From positions 62,001 through 126,000 of the forward strand of contig NZ_AOLQ01000004.1 of NCBI RefSeq assembly GCF_000337775.1: a stretch of DNA of 64,000 bases. Direction: 5' to 3'. Below the pieces are notes generated by a model. It saw only the letters and a list, made by a program, of their open reading frames with translations, made no database searches and was not told the DNA's origin. This document shows, in pieces, positions 4,655 through 16,308 of this stretch. Within the stretch, counting starts at the first letter, position 1. Every line of letters begins with the position of its first letter. The position numbers were made by a program, and so were the translations under genes. The DNA comes from Haloarcula vallismortis ATCC 29715 (GTDB lineage: Archaea > Halobacteriota > Halobacteria > Halobacteriales > Haloarculaceae).

Positions 4655-6028
4655 TTACTCTTCGACGGCTGCGTCGGCGGAATCGGCCTCAGCGTCCTCG
4701 TCTTCGTCATCGTCATCGGGATTCTCTACCACCTCAATGCCGCGGTTGTTGACCGCAGACGGGTCCAGACCGACCTCCTGCAGGAAGTTCTTGTACTCCC
4801 GTTCGCACTGCTCGGCATCCTTCTGGCGGTCGCTGGCCCGATCACACAGCGCGACGAGGTCCTCGGGCACGTCGTTCGTGTAGACGATCCAGTGGTTGAT
4901 GAGGTCAGAGAGCCGCCGAATCGGCGAGGTGAAGTGCCCGTAAATCTCGAAGTTCAGGGCGTGGTGGCCGCCGAAGGGGTCGTTCATGTACTTCGCACGG
5001 GGCATCACCTTCATCACGGCCCACTGGATTTTATCGAGCTGGCGGCCGGGTGCCTGTTCGAGCGTGGCGTTGACGGCCTTCCGCGGGTCGTCCCAGGCGT
5101 CGCCGGGGATGGAGACGCCGTCGAGTTCCTGAATCTCGACCAGCGCCTCGTCCCACTCGTCGGGACTGGGCTGTGGGTGGACCCGATACATCGCCTCGAC
5201 TCCGCGGTCCCACATCAGCTCGTGCGTGACGGCCTTGTTCGCCTTCAGCATGCACTCCTCGATGATGGTGTGGGCACGGTCACGCGCGGGGTTGAGCACG
5301 AGTGACCCCTCCTCCTTGCGTTGTTCGTGCATCGCGTCAGCCAGTTCCCAGACGCGCTCGGTCTTCTCCGCGAGGTCGACGCTCTGGTCTTCTAGCACGT
5401 CCTCTGCGGTCTCTGGCTCGTCCAGCAGGCGCTCGGCCTCGGTGTAAGTCAGCCGGGCGTCGCTACGGATGACGGACTTGTAGATGTTGATCTCCTCGTA
5501 GCCGAGATTCTCCTTGTCGAGGTGCATCTCGACGGTGTGGGCCAGGCGGTCCTCGTTGGGGACCAGTGAACAGACGGTCTCGGCGAGGACGGGCGGCAGC
5601 ATATGGACGGTGTAGGCCGGCAGGTAGACCGTGTTTCCGCGCTCAACGGCCTGCTCCCACATCTTCGTGTCGGGGTTGACGTAGTGGGTCACGTCGGCGA
5701 TGTGGACCCAGAGGACGATCTCGTCCTCGCGCTCCTCGATGGAGATGGCGTCGTCGAAGTCCTGGGCGTCGATGGGGTCAGTCGTCCAGGTCGTCATCTC
5801 CCGGAGGTCCCGCCGCTCGTCGACTTCCTCCTCAATTTCAGCCTGCACGTCCTGCGTGCGCTCTCTGGCTTCTTCAAGTACCTCGGGTGGGAACTCGTCG
5901 GGGATGCCGAACTTCTCGAACAGTTCCTCGCGTTTGTTCTCCAGATGCCGGGCCATCTCCTCGTCAATCTGAACGGGACCTTGTCCCTCGGCGGTCCCGG
6001 CGGCCGCCTGCGCGTCCTCTGTAGTCAT
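4655..6028 (-). CDS. rnr: RNase R/RNase II-type 3'-5' exoribonuclease (RNB domain)
   Basis: A 457-residue protein that is essentially a bare RNB catalytic domain. The catalytic aspartates lie in DPIDAQDFDDAIS (residues about 84-96), followed by VLWVHIADVTHYV and, near residue 370, YGHFTSPIRRLSDLINH, all hallmark RNB motifs. It degrades single-stranded RNA from the 3' end. The cold-shock and S1 RNA-binding domains of bacterial RNase R (around 800 residues) are absent; an acidic, low-complexity tail takes their place. Haloarchaea lack the archaeal exosome and rely on such an RNase R-like enzyme; it is reported essential in Haloferax volcanii. Upstream of the RNB core is a short charged coiled-coil-like region. 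Confidence 0.95.
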   Translation of the reverse strand: MTTEDAQAAAGTAEGQGPVQIDEEMARHLENKREELFEKFGIPDEFPPEVLEEARERTQDVQAEIEEEVDERRDLREMTTWTTDPIDAQDFDDAISIEEREDEIVLWVHIADVTHYVNPDTKMWEQAVERGNTVYLPAYTVHMLPPVLAETVCSLVPNEDRLAHTVEMHLDKENLGYEEINIYKSVIRSDARLTYTEAERLLDEPETAEDVLEDQSVDLAEKTERVWELADAMHEQRKEEGSLVLNPARDRAHTIIEECMLKANKAVTHELMWDRGVEAMYRVHPQPSPDEWDEALVEIQELDGVSIPGDAWDDPRKAVNATLEQAPGRQLDKIQWAVMKVMPRAKYMNDPFGGHHALNFEIYGHFTSPIRRLSDLINHWIVYTNDVPEDLVALCDRASDRQKDAEQCEREYKNFLQEVGLDPSAVNNRGIEVVENPDDDDEDEDAEADSADAAVEE

Positions 6029-6094
6029 GTCACCCGGTACGAACAGGGCGTAGTTAGGGCTGTCGGGGTGGGACTGGACCGTGGCTCCCGCGTC

Positions 6095-6379
6095 TCATTC
6101 CCTGTGCGCGTCGCCCTCGGACAGTTCTCGGAACCGTTTCAGGAACGTCTCTTGGTCGGCCTCGCCGGCCCCAGCGGCGTCGAGCGTCGTTTCGAGGCCG
6201 TCCCGTGGTTGTTGGCACAGCTCGGCAAAACAGGTTTTACAGAGGTATTCGAACTCCTTGTTCCGGCGGTCCCATCGGTCGCCGTGTTTGTCGTACTCGC
6301 GGGCCTCGGACCGTGGGATGGACTCGCCACACGCGATGCAGGTGACTGACTCCCCCCGGGAACTCCGGGACCCGAACAT
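6095..6379 (-). CDS. Small four-cysteine zinc-ribbon protein
   Basis: A protein of about 94 residues whose N-terminal half forms a treble-clef or zinc-ribbon-like unit: CIACGESIPRSEAREYDKH, then YLCKTCFAELC. The C-terminal half is an acidic helix (ADQETFLKRFRELSEGD). The start MFGSRSSRGES is preferred over a start 27 codons upstream, whose added residues are basic and Cys-containing, unlike haloarchaeal coding sequence. It is divergent from the Bat-like regulator 130 bases away. Function is unknown; conserved in haloarchaea as a hypothetical protein to my knowledge. Confidence 0.75.
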   Translation of the reverse strand: MFGSRSSRGESVTCIACGESIPRSEAREYDKHGDRWDRRNKEFEYLCKTCFAELCQQPRDGLETTLDAAGAGEADQETFLKRFRELSEGDAHRE

Positions 6380-6508
6380 ACCTACGGGTTGCGGGCGACA
6401 GCGTTTAGAGGTTTTCGCACAGGCAACAGTCCCCCGTTTTCGGGCCACACGTTTATTCACCCGCCGCTATTACACAGGGTATCGGCTATTCGCAGCCAGG
6501 GACACTGA

Positions 6509-8089
6509 ATGAAGCCACCAGAGACACTCGCTCACTCGACGTTGGACACGCTACCCATCAATATCGCTGTCCTCGACGACGAGGGGACGATCCTGTTCAC
6601 GAACCGCGCTTGGCGGAAGTTCGCGGGCGACGAGGACGGGGAGATGGAGGGGACAAACTACTTCACGACGACTGATGTCGACGCTGACGAATACGCCGGA
6701 CAGGCAGTCGGGGGCATCGAATCGGTCATCGACGGCGAGCAGGACCTGTTCACGATGGAGTACCCGTGTCACTCTCCGGAGGAGAAACAGTGGTTTCTGA
6801 TGCGGGTCGCACCGTTACCCGACGACGAGGCCGGGAGCGCAGTCGTTGCACACATCGATATCACCCAGCGGAAGCTCGCCGAACTGGCGGCCGAGCGACG
6901 GAGCGAGGAGCTCAAAGCCGAACGCCAGAACCTCAAACAGCTCGTCGACCGGGTCGACGGGCTGTTGAAGGCAGTGATGGGTGATGTACTGACCGTCGAT
7001 TCACGCGAGGCCATCCAGCAGACCGTCTGTGACCGGCTGGCCGAAGTCGACTCCTACCAGTTCGCATGGGTCTCCGAACTGGACCTGCGCGATGAGACGC
7101 TGTCGTCGACGGCGCTCTCCGCGGACCACCCGACAACGCTATCTATCCCGCTTGATGCAGACGATCCGGTCGCGGAGGCGGCTCGAACCGAGGAGATGCA
7201 GGTGGTGACCGGTGACATCGACGAGCAACACAGCCGGCTCGCCGACTCCGACGTGGCATCGGTCGCGGCAGTCCCGCTCGTCTCCGGCGAGTCACTGTAC
7301 GGCGTCCTCACCGTCTACGCCGACAGCGACGACGTGTTCGACCCCCGTGAACAGGCCGTACTGGGGACTATCGGCCGGGCGACTGCGGCGGCCATCGACG
7401 CCCGCGAGACCAGCCGGCTGCTGACCGCTGACAACGTCACCGAGCTCGAACTGAAGGTCACCGACCCCGACGTGTTCTACATCGATGTGGCGAGCGAACT
7501 CGGCTGCTCGATGGAGTACGGCGGGAGCGTCCCCGACGGCGAGGAGACGGTGATGTTCTTCCTCGTCGAGACGGACGACCCCTCGGCAGTCTGTGCCGTC
7601 GCCGCCGACCACCCGCAGGTCTCGGGCGTCTCGCACGTCTCGACGGCGGACTCCTCGGCACTGTTCGAATTCACCGTCTCGGACCCGCCGGTCGTCTCTG
7701 TCGTCGCCGACCGCGGGGCCCAGACGGGCGATATCCTCGTTGAACCGGGACAGGCGACGGTCACTGTTGCGCTCCCGGCCTCGATGGAGACCCGGAGCGT
7801 GGTCGAGCAGGTCCGCGGCCGGTATCCGGAGACGGAACTGCTCTCCGTGCGGGAACGGGACGAACCGCCCGTCTCCCGGCAGGCCTTTATCGCAAACGTC
7901 GAGGACCGGTTGACCAATCGCCAGCTAACGGCGCTCCGGAAAGGGTTTCTCGGCGGCTTCTTCGACTGGCCGCGCGATGTCTCCGGCGAGCAACTGGCCG
8001 AGTCGATGGACATCTGCCCGTCGACGTTTCATCAGCACCTCCGTGCTGGTGAGCGAAAGTTATTGGAAGAAGTGTTCGAAAACTGGTAA
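6509..8089 (+). CDS. bat: Bacterioopsin-activator (Bat) homologue: PAS-GAF-HTH regulator
   Basis: A 526-residue transcription factor. Residues about 10-120 form a PAS domain (INIAVLDDEGTILFTNRAWRKFAG). A charged coiled coil (ELAAERRSEELKAERQNLKQL) follows, then a GAF domain (about 150-300), a Bat-type coupling domain (about 305-460) and a C-terminal HTH-10 (LTNRQLTALRKGFLGGFFDW, CPSTFHQHL). Domain order and length match Halobacterium Bat, which senses low oxygen and light and activates bop, brp and crtB1. Its position next to crtB, the lycopene cyclase and blh strongly supports the assignment. Expected targets in this window are the bop promoter near 44.8 kb and the crtB promoter. The DNA contact sites proposed below are inferred. 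Confidence 0.92.
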   Translation: MKPPETLAHSTLDTLPINIAVLDDEGTILFTNRAWRKFAGDEDGEMEGTNYFTTTDVDADEYAGQAVGGIESVIDGEQDLFTMEYPCHSPEEKQWFLMRVAPLPDDEAGSAVVAHIDITQRKLAELAAERRSEELKAERQNLKQLVDRVDGLLKAVMGDVLTVDSREAIQQTVCDRLAEVDSYQFAWVSELDLRDETLSSTALSADHPTTLSIPLDADDPVAEAARTEEMQVVTGDIDEQHSRLADSDVASVAAVPLVSGESLYGVLTVYADSDDVFDPREQAVLGTIGRATAAAIDARETSRLLTADNVTELELKVTDPDVFYIDVASELGCSMEYGGSVPDGEETVMFFLVETDDPSAVCAVAADHPQVSGVSHVSTADSSALFEFTVSDPPVVSVVADRGAQTGDILVEPGQATVTVALPASMETRSVVEQVRGRYPETELLSVRERDEPPVSRQAFIANVEDRLTNRQLTALRKGFLGGFFDWPRDVSGEQLAESMDICPSTFHQHLRAGERKLLEEVFENW

Positions 8090-8136
8090 CCAGTGCTTCC
8101 GAACCTCGCTCTCGACGGCGGACTCCTGACGCGGTT

Positions 8137-8163
8137 CCCGAAGCAGTTTGGTAGTCTACTTAT
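8137..8163 (+). promoter_or_regulatory. Possible Bat-type upstream activating sequence and TATA before crtB
   Basis: The 15-base stretch CCCGAAGCAGTTTGG (8137-8151) resembles the bop UAS consensus as I remember it (ACC-N7-TTnGG type): the central AG and the TTnGG half agree, the first base does not. A TATA-like ACTTATG begins six bases downstream, similar to the spacing at the bop promoter. It implies a leader of about 160 nt before crtB. A second AT-rich element (8177-8184) could be the true TATA box, so the call is weak. Confidence 0.35.
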
Positions 8164-8345
8164 GCGGATAACAACCATATATACATGTAGTGATACCGAA
8201 CCAGTGTCCTATCTGTCGTCAGCGAGTGAACAGGACACACCGCCCCGTGATACCGGTACAACCACGGGCCGACCGGACCAGTACGCACAGCCTCCCGACA
8301 AGCGCGCGACGCATCGTCCGCCGAATGACTTCCAGATAGCTTTCA

Positions 8346-9317
8346 ATGCACTCCGATAACATTCAAACCAGCAAATCGATACAGCAGGAAACTGGACGGA
8401 CGTTCCACCTCGCGACGCGTCTGCTTCCGGAGCGTATCCGCCACCCGACGTACGTCATGTACGCGTTTTTCCGGGTCGCGGACGAGGTTGTCGACCAGCC
8501 GGACGGCCCGCCACCGACCGTCCAGCACGAGCAACTGGAGGTAATTCGCGAGGCCGCGCTCGGGAACATCGACCCGGCTGAAACAGACCACGAGGCAGTC
8601 ATGGCAGCGTTTCAGGACCTTGCAGAGCGTCACGACATCTCCGAGGAGACGATCAACGTCTTCATCGACGCAATGGAGATGGACATCGCACAGGCCCGCT
8701 ACGAGACCTTCGAGGACCTCCGCGAGTACATGCGCGGCTCCGCCGTCGCCGTCGGGCACATGATGACCGAGGTGATGGACCCGCCACAGAAGGCGGAAGC
8801 GCTGCCCCACGCGACGGCGCTTGCCGAGGCGTTTCAACTCTCGAACTTCCTGCGGGATGTCCGCGAGGACATCCACGACTACGGACGGGTGTACCTCCCA
8901 CAGGAGACGCTCGACCGCCACGGCGTCACCGAGGAGCAACTGGCCGACGCCGAGGTTGACGACGCGTTCCGTGCGGTGATGCAGGAGGAACTGGCCCGAA
9001 CTGACGAACTCTACCGCGAGGGCGTCGCCGGTATCCGGTATCTCCCCGAGGACTGCCAGTTCGGCGTGCTGCTGGCCGCAGTCCTGTACGCTGACCACCA
9101 CCGGCTCATTCGCGACCGCGGCTACGACGTGCTGACGGAGACGCCCGATCTCACTCGCCGTCGGCGGCTCTGGCTCCTCGCTCGGACGTGGTGGCACTGG
9201 CGGCGCAACGGCGACCCCGAAGCGACGTTTTACACCGTGAGCGCCGTCTCCGAGCGTGGTCCCGGCGAGACGCCGACAGACGCTCACAGCCACGGGCAGC
9301 CCACGTGGCGTGGATGA
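8346..9317 (+). CDS. crtB: Phytoene synthase
   Basis: A 323-residue trans-isoprenyl diphosphate synthase that condenses two geranylgeranyl diphosphates to phytoene, the first committed step to C40/C50 carotenoids and retinal. Both prenyl-diphosphate/Mg motifs are visible: RVADEVVDQPD (residues about 41-50) and SNFLRDVREDIHDYGRVYLP (about 163-182). It is a soluble or peripheral enzyme, and the length is normal for the family. The start MHSDNIQTSK is followed directly by family-like sequence. A 256-base gap separates it from bat and contains a possible promoter; 48 bases separate it from the lycopene cyclase, so crtB-crtY-blh is likely one operon. Confidence 0.96.
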   Translation: MHSDNIQTSKSIQQETGRTFHLATRLLPERIRHPTYVMYAFFRVADEVVDQPDGPPPTVQHEQLEVIREAALGNIDPAETDHEAVMAAFQDLAERHDISEETINVFIDAMEMDIAQARYETFEDLREYMRGSAVAVGHMMTEVMDPPQKAEALPHATALAEAFQLSNFLRDVREDIHDYGRVYLPQETLDRHGVTEEQLADAEVDDAFRAVMQEELARTDELYREGVAGIRYLPEDCQFGVLLAAVLYADHHRLIRDRGYDVLTETPDLTRRRRLWLLARTWWHWRRNGDPEATFYTVSAVSERGPGETPTDAHSHGQPTWRG

Positions 9318-9365
9318 CAGCCACGCGTCGGGCGTCGCCGCTGACCCATTGTCGCACCTGAGCTA

Positions 9366-10091
9366 ATGTTGCCCACGCCCACGTATCTCCAGTTCCACGC
9401 CCTGTTCGTGGTCCCGGTGGTGGCCGGACTGGTACTGACGGCCACCTACCGCCTCGGGAGCCGCCGGGACGTACTCACAGCAACGGCCATACTCACAGGC
9501 TTGGCGCTCGTCTACACGACGCCGTGGGACGGCGCGCTCATCCGGCGCGGCGTCTGGTGGTACGGCGACGGGGCCGTACTCGTGCGATTCTGGTCGATTC
9601 CACTCGGCGAGTACCTCTTTTTCGTCCTGCAGACCGCGATGGTGGGGCTGTGGGTGGCCCGGTTTCGGATGGACACGGAGCGCTCGCTGGCGACGCCGCT
9701 ACGAACGCGGCTCGTCGGGCTTGCCGCCGCACTCGCCGTCATTTTGTTCGGCCTCGTGCTCCTGCGCTCTGACTCAGGGCTGTATCTCGGGTCGCTGCTG
9801 GTCTGGAGCGGACCGATCCTCGCCATTCAGTGGCTGTTCGGGTGGCACTACCTCGTCGGCGAGTGGCGCACAGTCGGCCTCGCGACGCTGGTCCCGACGG
9901 CCTATCTCTGTGGTATCGACAGCATCGCCATTCGGCTCGGTGTCTGGACCATCTCGAAGCAGTACACGACCGGCTACACGATTCCCCTGCTCGACCTGCC
10001 GATTGAGGAGGCAGTCTTCTTCCTGCTGACGACGCTGTTCGTCGTACAGGGGGTCGTGCTCTACATCTGGCTCATCGACAGATGGGAGTGA
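9366..10091 (+). CDS. crtY: Lycopene beta-cyclase, fused membrane (CrtYcd) type
   Basis: A 241-residue membrane protein with about seven hydrophobic segments in two homologous halves, as in fused archaeal/fungal lycopene cyclases. The half-site motifs are SIPLGEYLFFVLQ (first half) and LPIEEAVFFLLTTLFVVQG (second half); related enzymes carry a PxEE-type motif, and the first half here reads Pro-Leu-Gly-Glu. It converts lycopene to beta-carotene, the substrate of the adjacent Blh. Its last codons overlap the start of blh by ten bases, so the two are translationally coupled. The combination with crtB and blh makes the assignment strong. Confidence 0.94.
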   Translation: MLPTPTYLQFHALFVVPVVAGLVLTATYRLGSRRDVLTATAILTGLALVYTTPWDGALIRRGVWWYGDGAVLVRFWSIPLGEYLFFVLQTAMVGLWVARFRMDTERSLATPLRTRLVGLAAALAVILFGLVLLRSDSGLYLGSLLVWSGPILAIQWLFGWHYLVGEWRTVGLATLVPTAYLCGIDSIAIRLGVWTISKQYTTGYTIPLLDLPIEEAVFFLLTTLFVVQGVVLYIWLIDRWE

Positions 10092-11113
10092 GCTACCGCA
10101 CCGCCGTCGAACCGTCGGTTCGCTACCGGGTGGCACTGGCTCCCGGCTGGGTTGCCAGCCTCGCCGTTGTCGTGCCGTTCCTCGCCGGGGTCTCGATACC
10201 GCCCGCGCTCCAGTATGTCCCGCTGGTCGTCAGCGCCGTCCTGCTCGGTCTGCCCCACGGCGCGGTCGACCACCTCGCGGTCGCACGCGCCCGCGGCGAC
10301 CACCCGGACTGGCGAGCTATCGCTCGCGTGTTCGCGCTCTACGGCGGCGTTGGCGGGGCCTACGCAGTTGTCTGGTTCCTCGCGCCCGCCGCGGCCTTTG
10401 TCCTGTTCATCGCAGTGACGTGGTTCCACTGGGGGCAAGGTGACCTGTACGCGCTGCGTGCGCTGGCCGACACTGACCACCTCCGGTCGCTTCCGCAGCG
10501 AGTCGGCACCGTCCTGATTCGCGGCGGCCTGCCGATGCTGGTCCCGCTGCTCGCGTTCCCTGACTGGTATCGTCGCGTCGCGACGGACCTCGTCTCGCTG
10601 TTCGCGCCCGATGCCGTGGCGGCTATCGGCTGGGCGTTCCGGACGGACGTGCGAACCGCCCTTGCAGTCGCCTACGGCGCGCTCGTCGTGGCGACGCTGG
10701 CCGTCGGATTCGCTCGCGCCGACGCCCGTCGGCCGTGGCTGCTCGACGCCGGCGAGACGCTGGGCCTGCTCGCGTACTTTGCCCTCGTTCCGCCGGTGCT
10801 TGCCATCGGCGTGTACTTCTGTCTGTGGCACTCGCTGCGCCACGTCGCTCGCCTCCTCCTCGTCGACGACGACGCCACCACTGCACTCCAGAACCGCGAC
10901 CCAGCGGCGGCGCTAGCGCGGTTCGCCCGCGACGCTGCGCCGCTGACTGCCGCCTCACTCGCCCTACTCGGTGGGCTGTACTTCCTCGTCCCGAACCCGC
11001 CCGGAACGGTGCCGGAGTGGGTCGCGCTGTATCTGGTGTTCATCGCCGTCGTGACGCTACCACACGTCGTCGTCGTCAGTATCATGGACCGCGAACAGGG
11101 CGTCTGGGTGTAG
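10082..11113 (+). CDS. blh: Brp/Blh family beta-carotene 15,15'-dioxygenase (retinal synthase)
   Basis: A 343-residue integral membrane protein with about ten hydrophobic segments. Four histidine-bearing motifs that bind the non-haem iron in Blh proteins are present: LPHGAVDHLAV, WFHWGQGD, CLWHSLRHVARLL and TLPHVVVVSIMD. The enzyme cleaves beta-carotene symmetrically to two retinals, the chromophore for rhodopsins. ATG overlaps the end of the cyclase gene, and the whole block (bat, crtB, crtY, blh) is a dedicated retinal module. The opsin it supplies within this window is the bacteriorhodopsin at 44.8 kb. In Halobacterium the homologues are brp and blh. Confidence 0.95.
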   Translation: MGVSYRTAVEPSVRYRVALAPGWVASLAVVVPFLAGVSIPPALQYVPLVVSAVLLGLPHGAVDHLAVARARGDHPDWRAIARVFALYGGVGGAYAVVWFLAPAAAFVLFIAVTWFHWGQGDLYALRALADTDHLRSLPQRVGTVLIRGGLPMLVPLLAFPDWYRRVATDLVSLFAPDAVAAIGWAFRTDVRTALAVAYGALVVATLAVGFARADARRPWLLDAGETLGLLAYFALVPPVLAIGVYFCLWHSLRHVARLLLVDDDATTALQNRDPAAALARFARDAAPLTAASLALLGGLYFLVPNPPGTVPEWVALYLVFIAVVTLPHVVVVSIMDREQGVWV

Positions 11114-11208
11114 TCTTTCGATAGTCGGTGTTGCCGGTCCTGCCAGACCAACCGCTCTTCGGAACGAGCACCCGGCAAAAAATGTCGGATAGAACTGCTG
11201 TGTCGGCG

Positions 11209-11799
11209 TTACTTGCCCTTGCCGCGGTTGCTGCGCAGCGACGGCCGGGTCTTCTCACTGCCCTTGCCCTTGCCGCCGAGGCCGCGGTTGCGGCGACCGG
11301 CACCGGTCAGGCCACGGAAGACGCGGTCGGCCTGGTCGTCGGCACAGATCCACGACAGGTCGTCGTCGTTCTGGATGGCCGGGTGGTTCGGGTCAATGAG
11401 GATGACTTCGTGCCACTTCTGGCGGCCGTCCTGACCGACGGAGTAGCTGTTGAGCACGCGCAGGTTCGGGAAGGTCCGGGAGGCGCGTTCCTCGGCGACG
11501 CGCTGGATGTCCTTCCGGCGGGTGATGCGCGTGACGCCCTGGCGCTTGGAGCGGCGACCGGCTTTGTGTCGCTGCTTGCGTGCACTGCCCTTGCGGACGG
11601 AGACGCGGGCGACGATGACGCCCTGCTTTGCCTTGTAGCCCTGCGAGCGAGCCTTGTCGAGGCGGGTCGGGCGCTCGATGCGCTCGACGGCTCCTTCGTC
11701 GCGCCATTCTTGCTGGCGCTGCCACTGTAGTTCTGCGAGCTGTCCGTCACCTGGGTTCTTCCAGGCGTCTCGAATGTACGAATATGCGCTTCGTGCCAT
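11209..11799 (-). CDS. rpl15e: 50S ribosomal protein L15e
   Basis: A 196-residue basic ribosomal protein, nearly identical by eye to the crystallised Haloarcula marismortui L15e: MARSAYSYIRDAW, RRSKRQGVTRITRRKDIQRV, SSYSVG-type and WHEVILIDPNHPAIQNDDDL blocks, and a basic GKGKGSEKTRPSLRSNRGKGK tail. It binds 23S rRNA in the large subunit. A few residues differ from my memory of the H. marismortui protein, so the organism is probably another Haloarcula strain or species. It is divergent from the aldehyde oxidoreductase gene and flanked by unrelated genes, as is usual for this single-gene unit. Confidence 0.98.
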   Translation of the reverse strand: MARSAYSYIRDAWKNPGDGQLAELQWQRQQEWRDEGAVERIERPTRLDKARSQGYKAKQGVIVARVSVRKGSARKQRHKAGRRSKRQGVTRITRRKDIQRVAEERASRTFPNLRVLNSYSVGQDGRQKWHEVILIDPNHPAIQNDDDLSWICADDQADRVFRGLTGAGRRNRGLGGKGKGSEKTRPSLRSNRGKGK

Positions 11800-12056
11800 A
11801 TGTATTCACCACGGGCGTTGCGTGGTTCAAGTCGCGGTCTGCGACTCACATCCCGACCTGCACACGCAGGTGCCCGCTGGTGCCCGTCGTCCAGCGAGTT
11901 ATCCGCAATTTGCCGTTCGGACTCTTAAGCGGTTCGGACCAGACTCACGGGTGTGACCCGGTCACGCAGGAACAGTACCCGCCGAAAACATCGGATGTCT
12001 GGGGTATCACAACACAAATCGTTAAGTTGTTCGCAACCAGAGAGTCACGTATTACC

Positions 12057-14003
12057 ATGACAGACCTTGGTGGCTTTCAGGACCACGTGGCGCGAATCGA
12101 CCTCGGGGATGGGGACGTAGCCTATGAAGGCATCGACGAGGAGGACGCGAAAAAGTACATCGGTGCACGCGGACTCGGCGTGAAGTATGTCTTCGACCAG
12201 GGGCCGGATGTGGACCCGCTGGGGCCGGACAACCTGCTGGCGTTCATGAACGGGCCGCTGACGGGCACACAGGTGACGATGAGCGGCCGTATCGCTATCT
12301 GTACGAAGTCACCGCTAACGGGGACCGTCACTGATTCCCACCACGGTGGCTGGTCGGGCGCACGGCTGAAGTGGTCGGGCTTCGACGGACTGCTGTTCGA
12401 GGGCCAGGCCGACGAGCCGGTGTATGCCCTCGTCGAGGACGGCGAGGTGGAACTGCGAGACGCCTCCCACCTCTGGGGGCAGGGCGTCCACGACACCATC
12501 GACGACCTCGAAGGCGAAATCGAGGGCGGGTCGCTGGGTAAGAACCTCTCCGTGATGGCCATCGGTCAGGGCGGCGAGAACGAGGTCAAATACGCCTGCA
12601 TTGTCAACGAGGACGACCGCGCCTCGGGCCGCGGCGGCACCGGCTGTGTGATGGGCAACAAGAACCTCAAGGCCGTCGTCGTCAAGTCCAGCACCCGGAT
12701 GCCCAAGCCACAGGACCAGGAGACGTTCCAGGAAGGCCACAAGCAGGCGATGCAAGTCATCCAAGAGTCCGACGTGACTGCGCCCAACGAGGGCGGACTC
12801 TCGATGTATGGCACCAACGTCCTGATGAACGTCACCGAAGAACTGGACGGTTTGCCGACGAAAAACGGCCAGTACTCCTCGACGCGGGCGATGTCCGACG
12901 CCGAAGGTGATGGCGAGCGGATTATCGATTCAGAGGACGTTTCAGGCGAGAACGTCCGGGAAAACATTCTGGTCGACGAGCCAACCTGTCACTCCTGTCC
13001 GGTCGCCTGCAAAAAGGAAGTCGAGGTGCAGGCGATGCACAAGGGCGAGGAGATGAACGTCCGCACGGAGTCCTACGAGTACGAGTCCGCGTGGGCGCTC
13101 GGCCCGAACTCCGGCCACGTCGAACGCGACAAAATCGCCGTGATGCTCGAACGGTGTAACGACGTCGGCGTCGACACCATCGACGTTGGCAATACGATGG
13201 CGATGGCGATGGAGATGACCGAGGAGGGGAAACTCGACGACCTCGGCGACGGGCTGGACTGGGGCGACGCCGACACGATGATCGACATGATCGATATGAT
13301 CGCCCACCGCGAGACGGAACTCGCGGACCACCTCGCCGAGGGGCCGGACCACCTCGCCGAGGAGTTCGACGCCCACACCAACTCTCTCGCTGTCAAAGGC
13401 CAGACGATGGCCGCCTACGACCCGCGCTGCATGAAGGGGATGGCAATCGGCTACGCGACCTCGAACCGCGGTGCGTGTCACCTGCGTGGCTACACGCCAG
13501 CAGCAGAGCTTCTGGGCGTCCCGGAGAAAGTCGACCCGCGAGAGTGGGAGGGCAAAGGCGAGCTGTGTGCCACTTTCCAGGACCTCCACGCCATCAGCGA
13601 CTCCTTCGACATCTGTAAGTTCAACGCCTTCGCGGAAGGTATCGAGGAGTACGTCCTGCAGTACAACGGCATGACCGGACTGGACGTGAGCGAAGAAGAA
13701 CTGATGGAAGCCGGCGAGCGCATCTACAACCTCGAACGGTACTACAACAACCTCGCCGGCTTCGATGGAGCCGACGACGACCTGCCCAACCGGTTCGTCG
13801 AAGGCGACGAGCACGCGATTCCGGCCCAGGGCGGCTCCGAGGGCGAACTCGCGGAGCTCTCGAAGATGAAAGACGAGTACTACGAGGTGCGCGATTGGGA
13901 GGACGGCGTCGTCCCCGACGAGAAACTCGACGAACTTGGTATCGACATCGGCCCCGGAACCGGCGTCAGTTCCGGCGGCGCAGCGGCACCGAGCGACGAC
14001 TGA
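12057..14003 (+). CDS. aor: Tungsten aldehyde:ferredoxin oxidoreductase (AOR family)
   Basis: A 648-residue cytosolic oxidoreductase that would oxidise aldehydes to acids, passing electrons to ferredoxin. N-terminal AOR domain motifs are clear (ARGLGVKYVFDQGPDVDPLG, GRIAICTKSPLTGTVTDSHHGG, WSGFDGLLFEG). The [4Fe-4S] ligands are in TCHSCPVACKKEV (Cys-X2-Cys-X3-Cys), with the distant fourth Cys in FDICKFNAF. A bis-tungstopterin cofactor is expected. The start is the ATG of MTDLGGFQDHV, preceded by an AT-rich promoter-like region. The downstream beta-grasp/MoaD-like genes may relate to cofactor sulfur transfer. The exact aldehyde is unknown; length and cysteine spacing are normal for the family. 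Confidence 0.95.
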   Translation: MTDLGGFQDHVARIDLGDGDVAYEGIDEEDAKKYIGARGLGVKYVFDQGPDVDPLGPDNLLAFMNGPLTGTQVTMSGRIAICTKSPLTGTVTDSHHGGWSGARLKWSGFDGLLFEGQADEPVYALVEDGEVELRDASHLWGQGVHDTIDDLEGEIEGGSLGKNLSVMAIGQGGENEVKYACIVNEDDRASGRGGTGCVMGNKNLKAVVVKSSTRMPKPQDQETFQEGHKQAMQVIQESDVTAPNEGGLSMYGTNVLMNVTEELDGLPTKNGQYSSTRAMSDAEGDGERIIDSEDVSGENVRENILVDEPTCHSCPVACKKEVEVQAMHKGEEMNVRTESYEYESAWALGPNSGHVERDKIAVMLERCNDVGVDTIDVGNTMAMAMEMTEEGKLDDLGDGLDWGDADTMIDMIDMIAHRETELADHLAEGPDHLAEEFDAHTNSLAVKGQTMAAYDPRCMKGMAIGYATSNRGACHLRGYTPAAELLGVPEKVDPREWEGKGELCATFQDLHAISDSFDICKFNAFAEGIEEYVLQYNGMTGLDVSEEELMEAGERIYNLERYYNNLAGFDGADDDLPNRFVEGDEHAIPAQGGSEGELAELSKMKDEYYEVRDWEDGVVPDEKLDELGIDIGPGTGVSSGGAAAPSDD

Positions 14004-14039: not shown

Positions 14040-14405
14040 ATGCGCAAGGAAGATATCGACGACTTCGAATTCCAGGTAGAGTCTCGACTGACCAGCCACG
14101 GCGTCTACGTCACCGAGTTCGACGACGAGGGCGATACGTACCGCCTCACCTACGAATCGATCTCGGCCGACGAGGCGGCTGTGATTCCCCACCGAGAGAT
14201 CGGTCGCGTCATCAACGTCTTCCGGGACCTGCACGCCGACGATTGGTCCGGGGTCGACATCGAGGCGACCGTGACGGACCTCGAAGACACCGAACTCGGC
14301 GAGTGGTCGGTCGACAGCGAGTGGATCGACGCCCTCGAAAACGGCGACCTCTCGGAGACGGACTTCTCTCAGCGCGTGCTGGAGACGATCACGATTCGGC
14401 AGTAA
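14040..14405 (+). CDS. DUF5813-like haloarchaeal hypothetical protein
   Basis: A 121-residue acidic protein with alternating strands and helices (FEFQVESRLTSHGVYVTEFDDEGDTYRLTYES, then VIPHREIGRVINVFRDLH). No signal peptide, transmembrane segment or cysteine. It starts 36 bases after the AOR stop and may be co-transcribed with it. Its 3' end overlaps the converging 14389-14757 gene by 17 bases. The family name is from memory and carries no functional information. A role linked to the tungsten enzyme is only a guess from position. Confidence 0.7.
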   Translation: MRKEDIDDFEFQVESRLTSHGVYVTEFDDEGDTYRLTYESISADEAAVIPHREIGRVINVFRDLHADDWSGVDIEATVTDLEDTELGEWSVDSEWIDALENGDLSETDFSQRVLETITIRQ

Positions 14406-14757
14406 CCGCCAGCACGTCCCTGATCTCAAGCGTCGTCTCGAACTCCTCGCTTCTGTCCAGCCGCCGGCCATCGCGCTCGAACTGGGCGGCGTGGGCCCGC
14501 TGAACTGCGTCCTGTTCGCGGTCGCTCAGGCCGAGTTCCGCCCCGATACTGTCCCAGTGGCCTGACTCGGCACAGACGTAGTCGGCCTCTCTGGGACCGC
14601 TGATGCGTTCGTACTCTCTATCGTAAGTCACACGGTGTTCCTGGAGATACGTCTGCACTCGCTCCAGCAGGTCCGGAAGCTGATCGAGTGGGACGCTGGC
14701 CTGCGTACCGGCCAGCAGGACGATCTGTCCCTCGATGGGATACGACGGGTCGGCCAT
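14389..14757 (-). CDS. Conserved haloarchaeal hypothetical protein
   Basis: A 122-residue protein with an N-terminal strand-rich segment (YPIEGQIVLLAGTQASVPLDQLPDLLERVQTYLQEH) and a C-terminal acidic region containing a single Cys in DYVCAESGHWDSIG. The stretch ELGLSDREQDAVQRAHAAQFERDGRRL looks like a helix-turn-helix-sized pair of helices, but I see no clear recognition helix. It may precede nothing in its operon, since the next minus-strand gene (14768-15025) lies directly upstream with a ten-base gap and is probably co-transcribed. Function unknown. Confidence 0.65.
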   Translation of the reverse strand: MADPSYPIEGQIVLLAGTQASVPLDQLPDLLERVQTYLQEHRVTYDREYERISGPREADYVCAESGHWDSIGAELGLSDREQDAVQRAHAAQFERDGRRLDRSEEFETTLEIRDVLAVTAES

Positions 14758-14767
14758 CGCGCCCCGG

Positions 14768-15025
14768 TCAGCCGCCCGCCCGCATCGCTTTCTGTGCGAA
14801 TTTCTCGATAAGGGGCTCCAGCGTTTCCGGCTCGCCGTCGAACTGGATGGTCACCTCGTTGAGCTGGAGGGTCGGCCCGATAGCGACCTTTTCTTCGGAG
14901 AGTGTCGCCGCCCAGCCGTCGCCTTCGACGGTCGCCTCGCCGTGTTGCTCACCGCCCAAGTTCTCCAGATACCCGATAGCAGCCCGCACCGAGATGCCGC
15001 GAAAACTCCGTTCACGCTCCATCAT
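14768..15025 (-). CDS. Small protein ending in Gly-Gly, function unknown
   Basis: About 85 residues starting at MMERERSFRGIS (either of two adjacent Met codons). It consists of one helix (RAAIGYLENLGGEQ) and several strands (EATVEGDGWAATLSEEKVAIGPTLQLNEVTIQFDG), then a C-terminal helix ending RAGG. A C-terminal Gly-Gly is the hallmark of MoaD/ThiS/SAMP sulfur carriers, but the rest does not match the beta-grasp pattern clearly, so the ending may be coincidental. The frame extends 20 codons upstream without support. It lies between an AOR gene and two beta-grasp genes, which makes the ending worth testing. Confidence 0.65.
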   Translation of the reverse strand: MMERERSFRGISVRAAIGYLENLGGEQHGEATVEGDGWAATLSEEKVAIGPTLQLNEVTIQFDGEPETLEPLIEKFAQKAMRAGG

Positions 15026-15149
15026 GTGGTCGTTACGGGTGCGGTCGTCTAAACCTATCGGCAGCTCTGCGCTGTTCCGCCACATCCGCCTATCACGGAC
15101 GAGTCCCGCCTCTCCCGGACGGCTACGGTCTACCCTGGAGCGATACCCT

Positions 15150-15518
15150 CTATCCCGGCCGGATGCCGTCGTCGACGATGCGGGCGTTGCGCTCGCGGTT
15201 GATGCGCTCGTCTAGGTCCGCGTGGTCGTAAATCTGGGCGATGACGGCGGCGTGGAGGTCCCGCCAGGCCATCGCATAGATTGGCGATTGCCCCCAGGCC
15301 CGGAGTTCGACGACGTACTCGTCGTAGGCCTCCCATCGGCTCTCGAACTGCTCGATGTGGTCGACGACGGCGCTGGCCGGCTCGTCGGAGTTGAGGGCGG
15401 CGTTGAGCTCCCGCTCCCAGCCGCCGACGGCCTGCTCCATATCGCGTTTCGTGTCCTCGCTGTCCGGCGGCAGCGAGTCGACAATCCCGGACGGAATCCC
15501 GAGTTCGATATCGTCCAT
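15150..15518 (-). CDS. Acidic helical haloarchaeal hypothetical protein
   Basis: A protein of about 122 residues beginning MDDIELGIPSGIVDSLPPD. It is rich in acidic residues and Trp/Tyr (GGWERELNAALNSDEP, FESRWEAYDEYVVELRAWGQSPIYAMAWRDLHAA), probably an all-helical cytosolic bundle. No cysteine and no recognisable catalytic motif. The chosen start is preferred because the eight additional upstream codons (MLRTLCGD) are atypical. It is divergent from the Cys-Cys beta-grasp gene 91 bases away. Function unknown. Confidence 0.7.
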   Translation of the reverse strand: MDDIELGIPSGIVDSLPPDSEDTKRDMEQAVGGWERELNAALNSDEPASAVVDHIEQFESRWEAYDEYVVELRAWGQSPIYAMAWRDLHAAVIAQIYDHADLDERINRERNARIVDDGIRPG

Positions 15519-15609
15519 ATCGCCACACAGAGTTCGCAACAAATAAACCCCGGCGGTAGGCGAACATGTTCGTCTCTACTGACTTGTGTCGGTGGGTCGT
15601 AGCGTACGT

Positions 15610-16011
15610 ATGAGCAGTGAGACACTGGAACGGCAGGCGTCGGACCCGGACCTGACCACTGTCGAGGTCAGGTGTACCGGCCACGTTCGTCAGGCCGTCG
15701 GCGACCCGTCGCTGTCATACACGTTCGAAGGGGACACGCTACGTGACTTCCTCGATGCGTTCTTCCGGGAGTACGACGTGAGCGATATGCTCATCGCGGA
15801 AACCGAAGCTGACGCCACCACCGAGGGCTGGGCACCGGAGATGGCGGACCTGCCGGGCGACGGGAGGAAAAACCCTGAAGGCGAGCAGACCAGATGTTAC
15901 GCGCGAGTGGCGGTCAACGGTGAATTCAACGAACATCTCGACGGACTGGACACAGAACTGGAAGCCGGCGACCGCGTCGGCCTGATGTTCCCGTTTATTT
16001 TCTGTTGTTGA
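15610..16011 (+). CDS. MoaD/ThiS-like beta-grasp protein with C-terminal Cys-Cys
   Basis: A 133-residue protein with a MoaD/ThiS beta-grasp layout: strand 1 VEVRCTGHVRQAVG, helix LRDFLDAFFREYDV, an insertion (about residues 65-92, EADATTEGWAPEMADLPGDG), then RVAVNGEFNEHLDGLDTELEAGDRVGLMFP. The last block matches the MoaD/SAMP consensus (NG..I..LDGLDT.L.DGD.V..FPPVAGG) except that the end is FPFIFCC: the essential Gly-Gly is replaced by Cys-Cys. It therefore cannot be adenylylated at Gly in the usual way. It lies 3' to 3' with SAMP1, 24 bases apart, and near the tungsten AOR. A structural, scaffold or redox role is possible. The start MSSETLE is chosen over MSVGRSVR eight codons upstream. Confidence 0.82.
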   Translation: MSSETLERQASDPDLTTVEVRCTGHVRQAVGDPSLSYTFEGDTLRDFLDAFFREYDVSDMLIAETEADATTEGWAPEMADLPGDGRKNPEGEQTRCYARVAVNGEFNEHLDGLDTELEAGDRVGLMFPFIFCC

Positions 16012-16035
16012 CTTGGCGACCGACGCTAACGGGGC

Positions 16036-16308
16036 TTACCCCCCGGCAACTGGCGGGAACACGCTGAGTTCGTCCCCGTCTTCCAGTGCGGTCTCCAGCC
16101 CGTCGAGATGGGTGATATCCGTTCCGTTCCGGAGAATCGTCAGGTACTCCCGGAGTTCGCCGTTCTCGAACAGGTCCATCTCTGTGAACTCCTCGGAGAG
16201 CTGTCGGAGCACGTCGCCGGCCTGCAGGTCGCTCTCGTACTCGCGGTGAACCGTTTTCTGTCCGGCGGCTTCCCGGAAGTTGGCAAAAAACCGCAGCTCG
16301 ATTTGCAT
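16036..16308 (-). CDS. samp1: SAMP1-type ubiquitin-like modifier / MoaD sulfur carrier
   Basis: A 90-residue beta-grasp protein: MQIELRFFANFREAAGQKTV, a helix (QAGDVLRQLSEEF) and LRNGTDITHLDGLETALEDGDELSVFPPVAGG. The C-terminal Ala-Gly-Gly is intact and would be adenylylated by UbaA. In Haloferax volcanii SAMP1 acts both as a ubiquitin-like protein modifier and as the MoaD sulfur carrier for molybdopterin synthesis; the same pterin is the ligand of tungsten in the AOR encoded 2 kb away. Length is normal. It converges with the Cys-Cys beta-grasp gene. Moderate certainty that it is SAMP1 rather than another MoaD paralogue. Confidence 0.92.
   Translation of the reverse strand: MQIELRFFANFREAAGQKTVHREYESDLQAGDVLRQLSEEFTEMDLFENGELREYLTILRNGTDITHLDGLETALEDGDELSVFPPVAGG

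Follow-up and report, generated by a model that had tools for sequence, protein, structure and literature searches.

The locus analyzed here raises the question of what a protein with the MoaD/SAMP fold may do when its chain ends in Cys residues in place of Gly-Gly. In the window (the whole 64-kb stretch of DNA that was analyzed), two β-grasp genes are encoded tail to tail with their ends 24 bases apart, as the initial annotation had described, and both ORFs were found at the positions below. The AGG end of the neighboring protein was read in its translation (ending ELSVFPPVAGG), and the AOR expected at 12–14 kb was located at about 12060–14003.

15610–16011, + strand: Cys-tailed MoaD/SAMP-fold protein P0001 (133 aa), ending FIFCC; the translation ends ...GDRVGLMFPFIFCC
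15994–16008, + strand: C-terminal F-I-F-C-C of P0001 (residues 129–133), family pattern F-[IMLV]-[FY]-C-x
16036–16308, − strand: SAMP1-like ubiquitin-like modifier P0002 (90 aa), ending AGG; NCBIfam SAMP1, 95.6 bits (cut-off 60)
12060–14003, + strand: aldehyde ferredoxin oxidoreductase (AOR), AFOR_N and AFOR_C; a neighbor whose functional link is not supported

Fold and C-terminus of P0001

The MoaD/SAMP fold first assigned to P0001 is borne out by a ThiS match, a SAMP1 profile match, and an AF2 model. Pfam ThiS gives 23.7 bits, just above the cut-off of 22.5, and the P0001 profile matches the profile of ten SAMP1 relatives with a probability of 96% in hhalign (E 3e-9). The structures nearest to the AF2 model (53 orthologues) are of the SAMP1 type (2l52, 2m19, and 4hro), and the Foldseek comparison of the model with SAMP1 gives an E value of 7.6e-7. 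P0001 scores below the cut-off of the SAMP1 equivalog NF041918 (27.4 vs 60 bits) and also below that of moaD_arch in the profile search. The model is of moderate quality (mean pLDDT 72.7), being good at core residues 15–60 and poor in the insert and the tail. Residues 129–133 are disordered (pLDDT < 50), and this low model confidence suggests that the C-terminal arm may be flexible.

P0001 shares the fold and the core motif GLxTxLxxGD with SAMP1/MoaD (PF02597; H. volcanii SAMP1, PDB 3po0 and 4hro). It differs from them in having no Gly-Gly, a conserved insert of ~35 residues, an FNE motif, and a tail that exceeds the SAMP1 tail by one residue when counted from GLxTxLxxGD. The position of C132 in the tail should be noted. 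In the gap-free register, C132 is aligned with the terminal Gly of SAMP1. When Phe-Pro is used as the anchor, C132-C133 lies opposite the Gly-Gly of SAMP1 with C132 at the first Gly, and the SAMP1 profile gives the same register. Judging from these alignments, an activatable C-terminal Gly is absent from P0001 in either register. The initial view that the protein cannot form the usual Gly thiocarboxylate is thus supported, the Cys tail in place of Gly-Gly being real and conserved.

Distribution and conserved residues of the family

The Cys-tailed family is present in 245 of 391 haloarchaeal genomes sampled across the class (~63%) and in 58 of 86 genera, with orthologues in named species of Haloarcula, Halorussus, Natrinema, Natronococcus, Haloferax, Halorientalis, Natronomonas, and others. 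No relatives outside Halobacteria were detected at E 1e-6 among 391 genomes drawn across the phylum. We regard the family as a haloarchaea-specific offshoot of the MoaD/SAMP β-grasp family.

The C-terminal Gly-Gly that marks MoaD, SAMP, and ThiS proteins is replaced by an F-x-[FY]-C-x end in all 53 aligned members, and orthologues down to ~55% identity terminate in [LMIV][YF]PF[IMLV][FY]C-x. Conservation of Cys-Cys, which had been raised as the point to check, holds for its first residue: the penultimate C132 is invariant (53/53). It does not hold for the last residue, where 44 of the 53 have C, 5 have L, and 4 have V, with F, M, or Y seen in other members. The conserved unit, as far as sequences tell, is therefore one Cys and not Cys-Cys. 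C22 (50/53) and H25 (52/53) are also conserved and form the motif C22-T-G-H25. The insert is specific to the family and absent from SAMP1, with invariant W74, N88-P89, G91, Q93, and R95 (KNPxGxQTR), and so is the invariant motif F106-N107-E108.

A frameshift or chance ending is excluded, since the tail Cys and other positions are conserved across the family. A sequencing frameshift near 16000, against which the initial annotation had cautioned, does not fit a tail that is invariant across orthologues. The few broken relatives would suit a frameshifted or decaying SAMP copy. With the tail invariant in more than 100 distinct orthologues and the promoter box described below also conserved, the probability of this explanation is practically negligible.

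Several members deviate from the common pattern. Tandem second copies (L040, L041, L044, L048, L110, and L125) have tails PLT(C/Y/V) or FAP, not FC-x, and the tail Cys is accordingly a feature of the main group. The gene is broken (frameshifted or truncated) in three genomes (L050, L051, and L052). In P0001 itself, residue 85 (15862–15864), which lies inside the conserved insert, is Gly, while it is Trp in 49 and Tyr in 3 of the 53 aligned relatives; this is either strain variation or an assembly error.

The initial annotation had taken the Cys-ending protein as not described. This claim, and with it the novelty of the tail itself, fails because Makarova and Koonin (2010, PMC2948915) had noted a haloarchaeal β-grasp protein, arCOG00539, with a double-Cys C-terminus and no role assigned. 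The text of that paper mentions arCOG00539 once, without gene context, regulation, or function, and the accession was not found elsewhere in the literature searched. The P0001 family is probably arCOG00539, judging from its description in PMC2948915, since both are β-grasp proteins limited to Halobacteria with a C-terminal CC. Beyond that description, the first Cys alone proves invariant here and a regulon is assigned.

The promoter palindrome

A palindrome lies in the intergenic region upstream of P0001, where a divergent gene starts.

15561–15572: palindrome CGAACATGTTCG, 37 nt before the ATG of P0001
15150–15542, − strand: small conserved gene (cluster c17), divergent and sharing the intergenic box, which is upstream in 12/15 relatives

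CGAACATGTTCG is the sole exact CGAAC-N2-GTTCG in the window. Of 114 distinct orthologous loci, 88 have an exact match to this motif upstream of the Cys-tailed gene and 110 have a match with at most one mismatch; shuffled upstream sequences yield no exact match and 0.6 at one mismatch. When one fixed search interval was applied to all genes, CGAA-N4-TTCG was found ahead of the Cys-tailed gene in 92 of 128 cases, a rate affected by start codons that are frequently called too early. In the same interval, the box precedes genes for CGCGG proteins (17/19), NirK (10/16), and NorB (5/8), and other genes in 51 of 1737 cases; it is upstream of none of the 21 AOR and none of the 15 SAMP1 relatives.

The palindrome is identical to that of the Haloferax CGAA-N4-TTCG/NarO denitrification regulon (PMC5746218, PMC10062603, and PMC11218638), where it likewise stands some tens of bases ahead of the start codon. 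The nosZ and nor promoters of H. mediterranei contain the identical CGAACATGTTCG, and its mutation reduces promoter activity (PMC10062603). In H. volcanii, the palindrome precedes denitrification genes and ahbD, and it is essential for anaerobic nirK transcription (PMC5746218, citing Hattori 2016 for the latter). The Cys-tailed gene is not named in the portions of the three papers that were consulted. A link of the family to the denitrification regulon was not found in the accessible literature, and searches on "pterin cluster protein", Htur_1727, and ThiS with denitrification in Haloferax found nothing. From the box and the neighboring genes, the assignment of the Cys-tailed gene to the CGAA-N4-TTCG low-oxygen/denitrification regulon is well supported. 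This assignment through the promoter box is new, and it provides a first likely role for an orphan family.

The CGAACATGTTCG form occurs three times in the genome: at the window locus, within an HTH_10/CGCGG/TIGR04053 cluster, and in front of the gene for an HTH_10 regulator of the DmsR type close to MobB-MoaE. The cluster (L202, G000:C69:430000-449900, 7633–11880) has five CGAA-N4-TTCG boxes and contains genes for HTH_10, a CGCGG protein, a TIGR04053 radical SAM protein, a DmsR_N regulator, an NnrS-like membrane protein, and DUF2249. In the third locus (L203, G000:C9:36000-46000, 4942–8876), the DmsR_N/HTH_10 regulator gene carries CGAACATGTTCG in its leader and a MobB-MoaE fusion gene lies a few genes downstream, an arrangement that may connect molybdopterin synthesis with the anoxia box.

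Gene neighborhood and co-occurrence

A functional tie of the Cys-tailed gene to AOR and SAMP1, which the initial annotation had suggested from the window, is not borne out. The block of AOR, small genes, the Cys-tailed gene, and SAMP1 is common to Haloarcula and some other genera. Of 122 distinct loci, 20 have AOR and 15 have SAMP1 in the fetched stretch, and these two genes were thus rejected as general partners. Since both are rarely near and have no box, the evidence favors the low-oxygen/denitrification regulon over a tie to AOR and SAMP1. That the protein is a partner in tungsten AOR/SAMP1 chemistry is accordingly very unlikely; the 20 loci with AOR would suit it, but they come from few genera, and in most gene-bearing genomes the gene is located elsewhere.

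Genes for NirK, NorB, AhbD-like TIGR04053 or pseudo-SAM TIGR04347 proteins, CGCGG (TIGR03995), Htur_1727 (TIGR04031), or halocyanin lie within ~10 kb in 53 of the 122 loci. Annotated plasmid records likewise place nirK, a Nor-type oxidase, halocyanin, radical SAM, and hemG around the Cys-tailed gene, for which NCBI gives the product names "MoaD/ThiS family" or "pterin cluster" protein. No neighbor is universal, and the neighborhood alone is not decisive because 40 loci have neither the denitrification/heme genes nor AOR/SAMP1. The odds ratios of co-occurrence, uncorrected for phylogeny, are 3.3 for NirK, 4.2 for CGCGG, and 4.1 for NosZ; TIGR04053 presence was left out of these statistics, as the threshold split its matches. 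Co-occurrence thus gives moderate backing to a role in low-oxygen respiration. A strict dependence on NirK was considered and rejected: 82 of the 245 gene-positive genomes have no NirK, so the gene is not strictly a denitrification gene. Since 16 of 21 NirK-negative loci retain the box, the role is probably in general low-oxygen respiration and not in nitrite reduction alone.

Some other neighbors should be mentioned. In L172, L178, L179, and L182, the gene comes after a member of one gene cluster, which was identified in L178 as encoding a DUF420 membrane protein. In the window, the small protein encoded at 14768–15085 (− strand) ends KAMRAGG, with the AGG end in 16/16 relatives, and is probably arCOG06308, a GG family with a TBP-like fold. 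According to PMC2948915, the neighbors of arCOG06308 are a MoaD-like Ubl and two small proteins, and the latter would correspond here to the genes at 14389–14757 and 15150–15542. Carotenoid/retinal genes (phytoene synthase, lycopene cyclase, and Brp-like) were recognized by eye at 8346–11113, just before AOR.

Possible roles of the C-terminal Cys

We give about an even chance to the reading that the Cys-tailed protein serves the low-oxygen/denitrification regulon as an accessory and that its tail thiol carries out the chemistry, namely carriage of sulfur or metal. A NarO/DmsR-like HTH_10 regulator would induce the gene under low oxygen, and the protein would help build or protect respiratory enzymes under these conditions. 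C132 appears to replace the glycine that is activated by E1 enzymes, so that a role as a thiocarboxylate or isopeptide modifier is not expected. Thiol or metal chemistry, already suggested in the initial annotation, is our best guess for the tail: its thiol, perhaps with C22 and H25, may deliver persulfide sulfur or a metal, for instance Cu(I), to a partner, and the cargo could be either. In the ubiquitin fold, β1 is adjacent to β5, so C22 and H25 at the end of β1 should sit near the tail base. We hypothesize that C22, H25, and C132 cluster there, in a model where the tail is disordered and a family where C22 is missing from 3 of 53 members. The DsrC/TusE sulfur carriers use a Cys at the penultimate position of a flexible C-terminal arm to carry sulfur. 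P0001 also has a conserved penultimate Cys, but its fold is unrelated to theirs, and sulfur carriage would follow by analogy only. It is a tentative proposal that the protein is a ubiquitin-fold carrier which gave up the E1/thiocarboxylate route for a C-terminal Cys and became dedicated to the assembly of denitrification/low-oxygen respiratory enzymes, for example in delivering sulfide or copper to NosZ/NirK or in heme-related steps.

The alternatives differ in what the tail is for. A metal chaperone, in which C22, H25, and the tail Cys bind Cu(I) (or Zn/Fe) and pass it on to NirK, NosZ, halocyanins, or heme-copper reductases, whose induction would involve the same box, is possible though doubtful. 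The near-invariant C22-T-G-H25 together with C132 would suit such a site, as would neighbors such as copper nitrite reductase, halocyanin, multicopper oxidase, NorB, and, in some loci, DUF420. However, H25 as well as C22 is occasionally missing (1 and 3 of 53, respectively), the site geometry rests on the model with a disordered tail, and the protein matches no metal-chaperone family. A decoy or regulator of Gly-Gly relatives, whose unactivatable tail would bind UbaA (E1), MoaE, or JAMM and tune SAMP1/molybdopterin synthesis under anoxia, is unlikely. Its SAMP1-like fold, the tail-to-tail arrangement with SAMP1 in Haloarcula and some relatives, and the boxed DmsR-type regulator gene near MobB-MoaE in the same genome are consistent with this role, whereas SAMP1 is so rarely near and without the box, and the invariant Cys and the insert with W74 and KNPxGxQTR exceed what a decoy needs.

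Radical SAM/SPASM genes of the TIGR04053/TIGR04347 families are found in 41 of the 122 loci, and NCBI annotates CGCGG and Htur_1727 as radical-SAM-partnered candidates. The tail Cys/Phe might be modified by these AhbD-like or pseudo-SAM enzymes, making the protein a RiPP-like substrate. We consider this quite improbable: the heme synthase AhbD belongs to the enzyme family, which is enough to account for such genes; its large size and its fold set the protein apart from most precursors; and two thirds of the loci have no such neighbor.

Significance of the family

The family is found in ~63% of the sampled haloarchaeal genomes and has so far been an orphan, known just for its double-Cys end. 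Its near-universal box and recurrent neighbors tie it to low-oxygen respiration, so that its role can be tested directly in Haloferax species amenable to genetics. Sulfur or metal carriage by the tail Cys, if real, would mean that chemistry has changed within the ubiquitin/MoaD fold, and could bear on the supply of copper, sulfide, or heme to archaeal denitrification enzymes.
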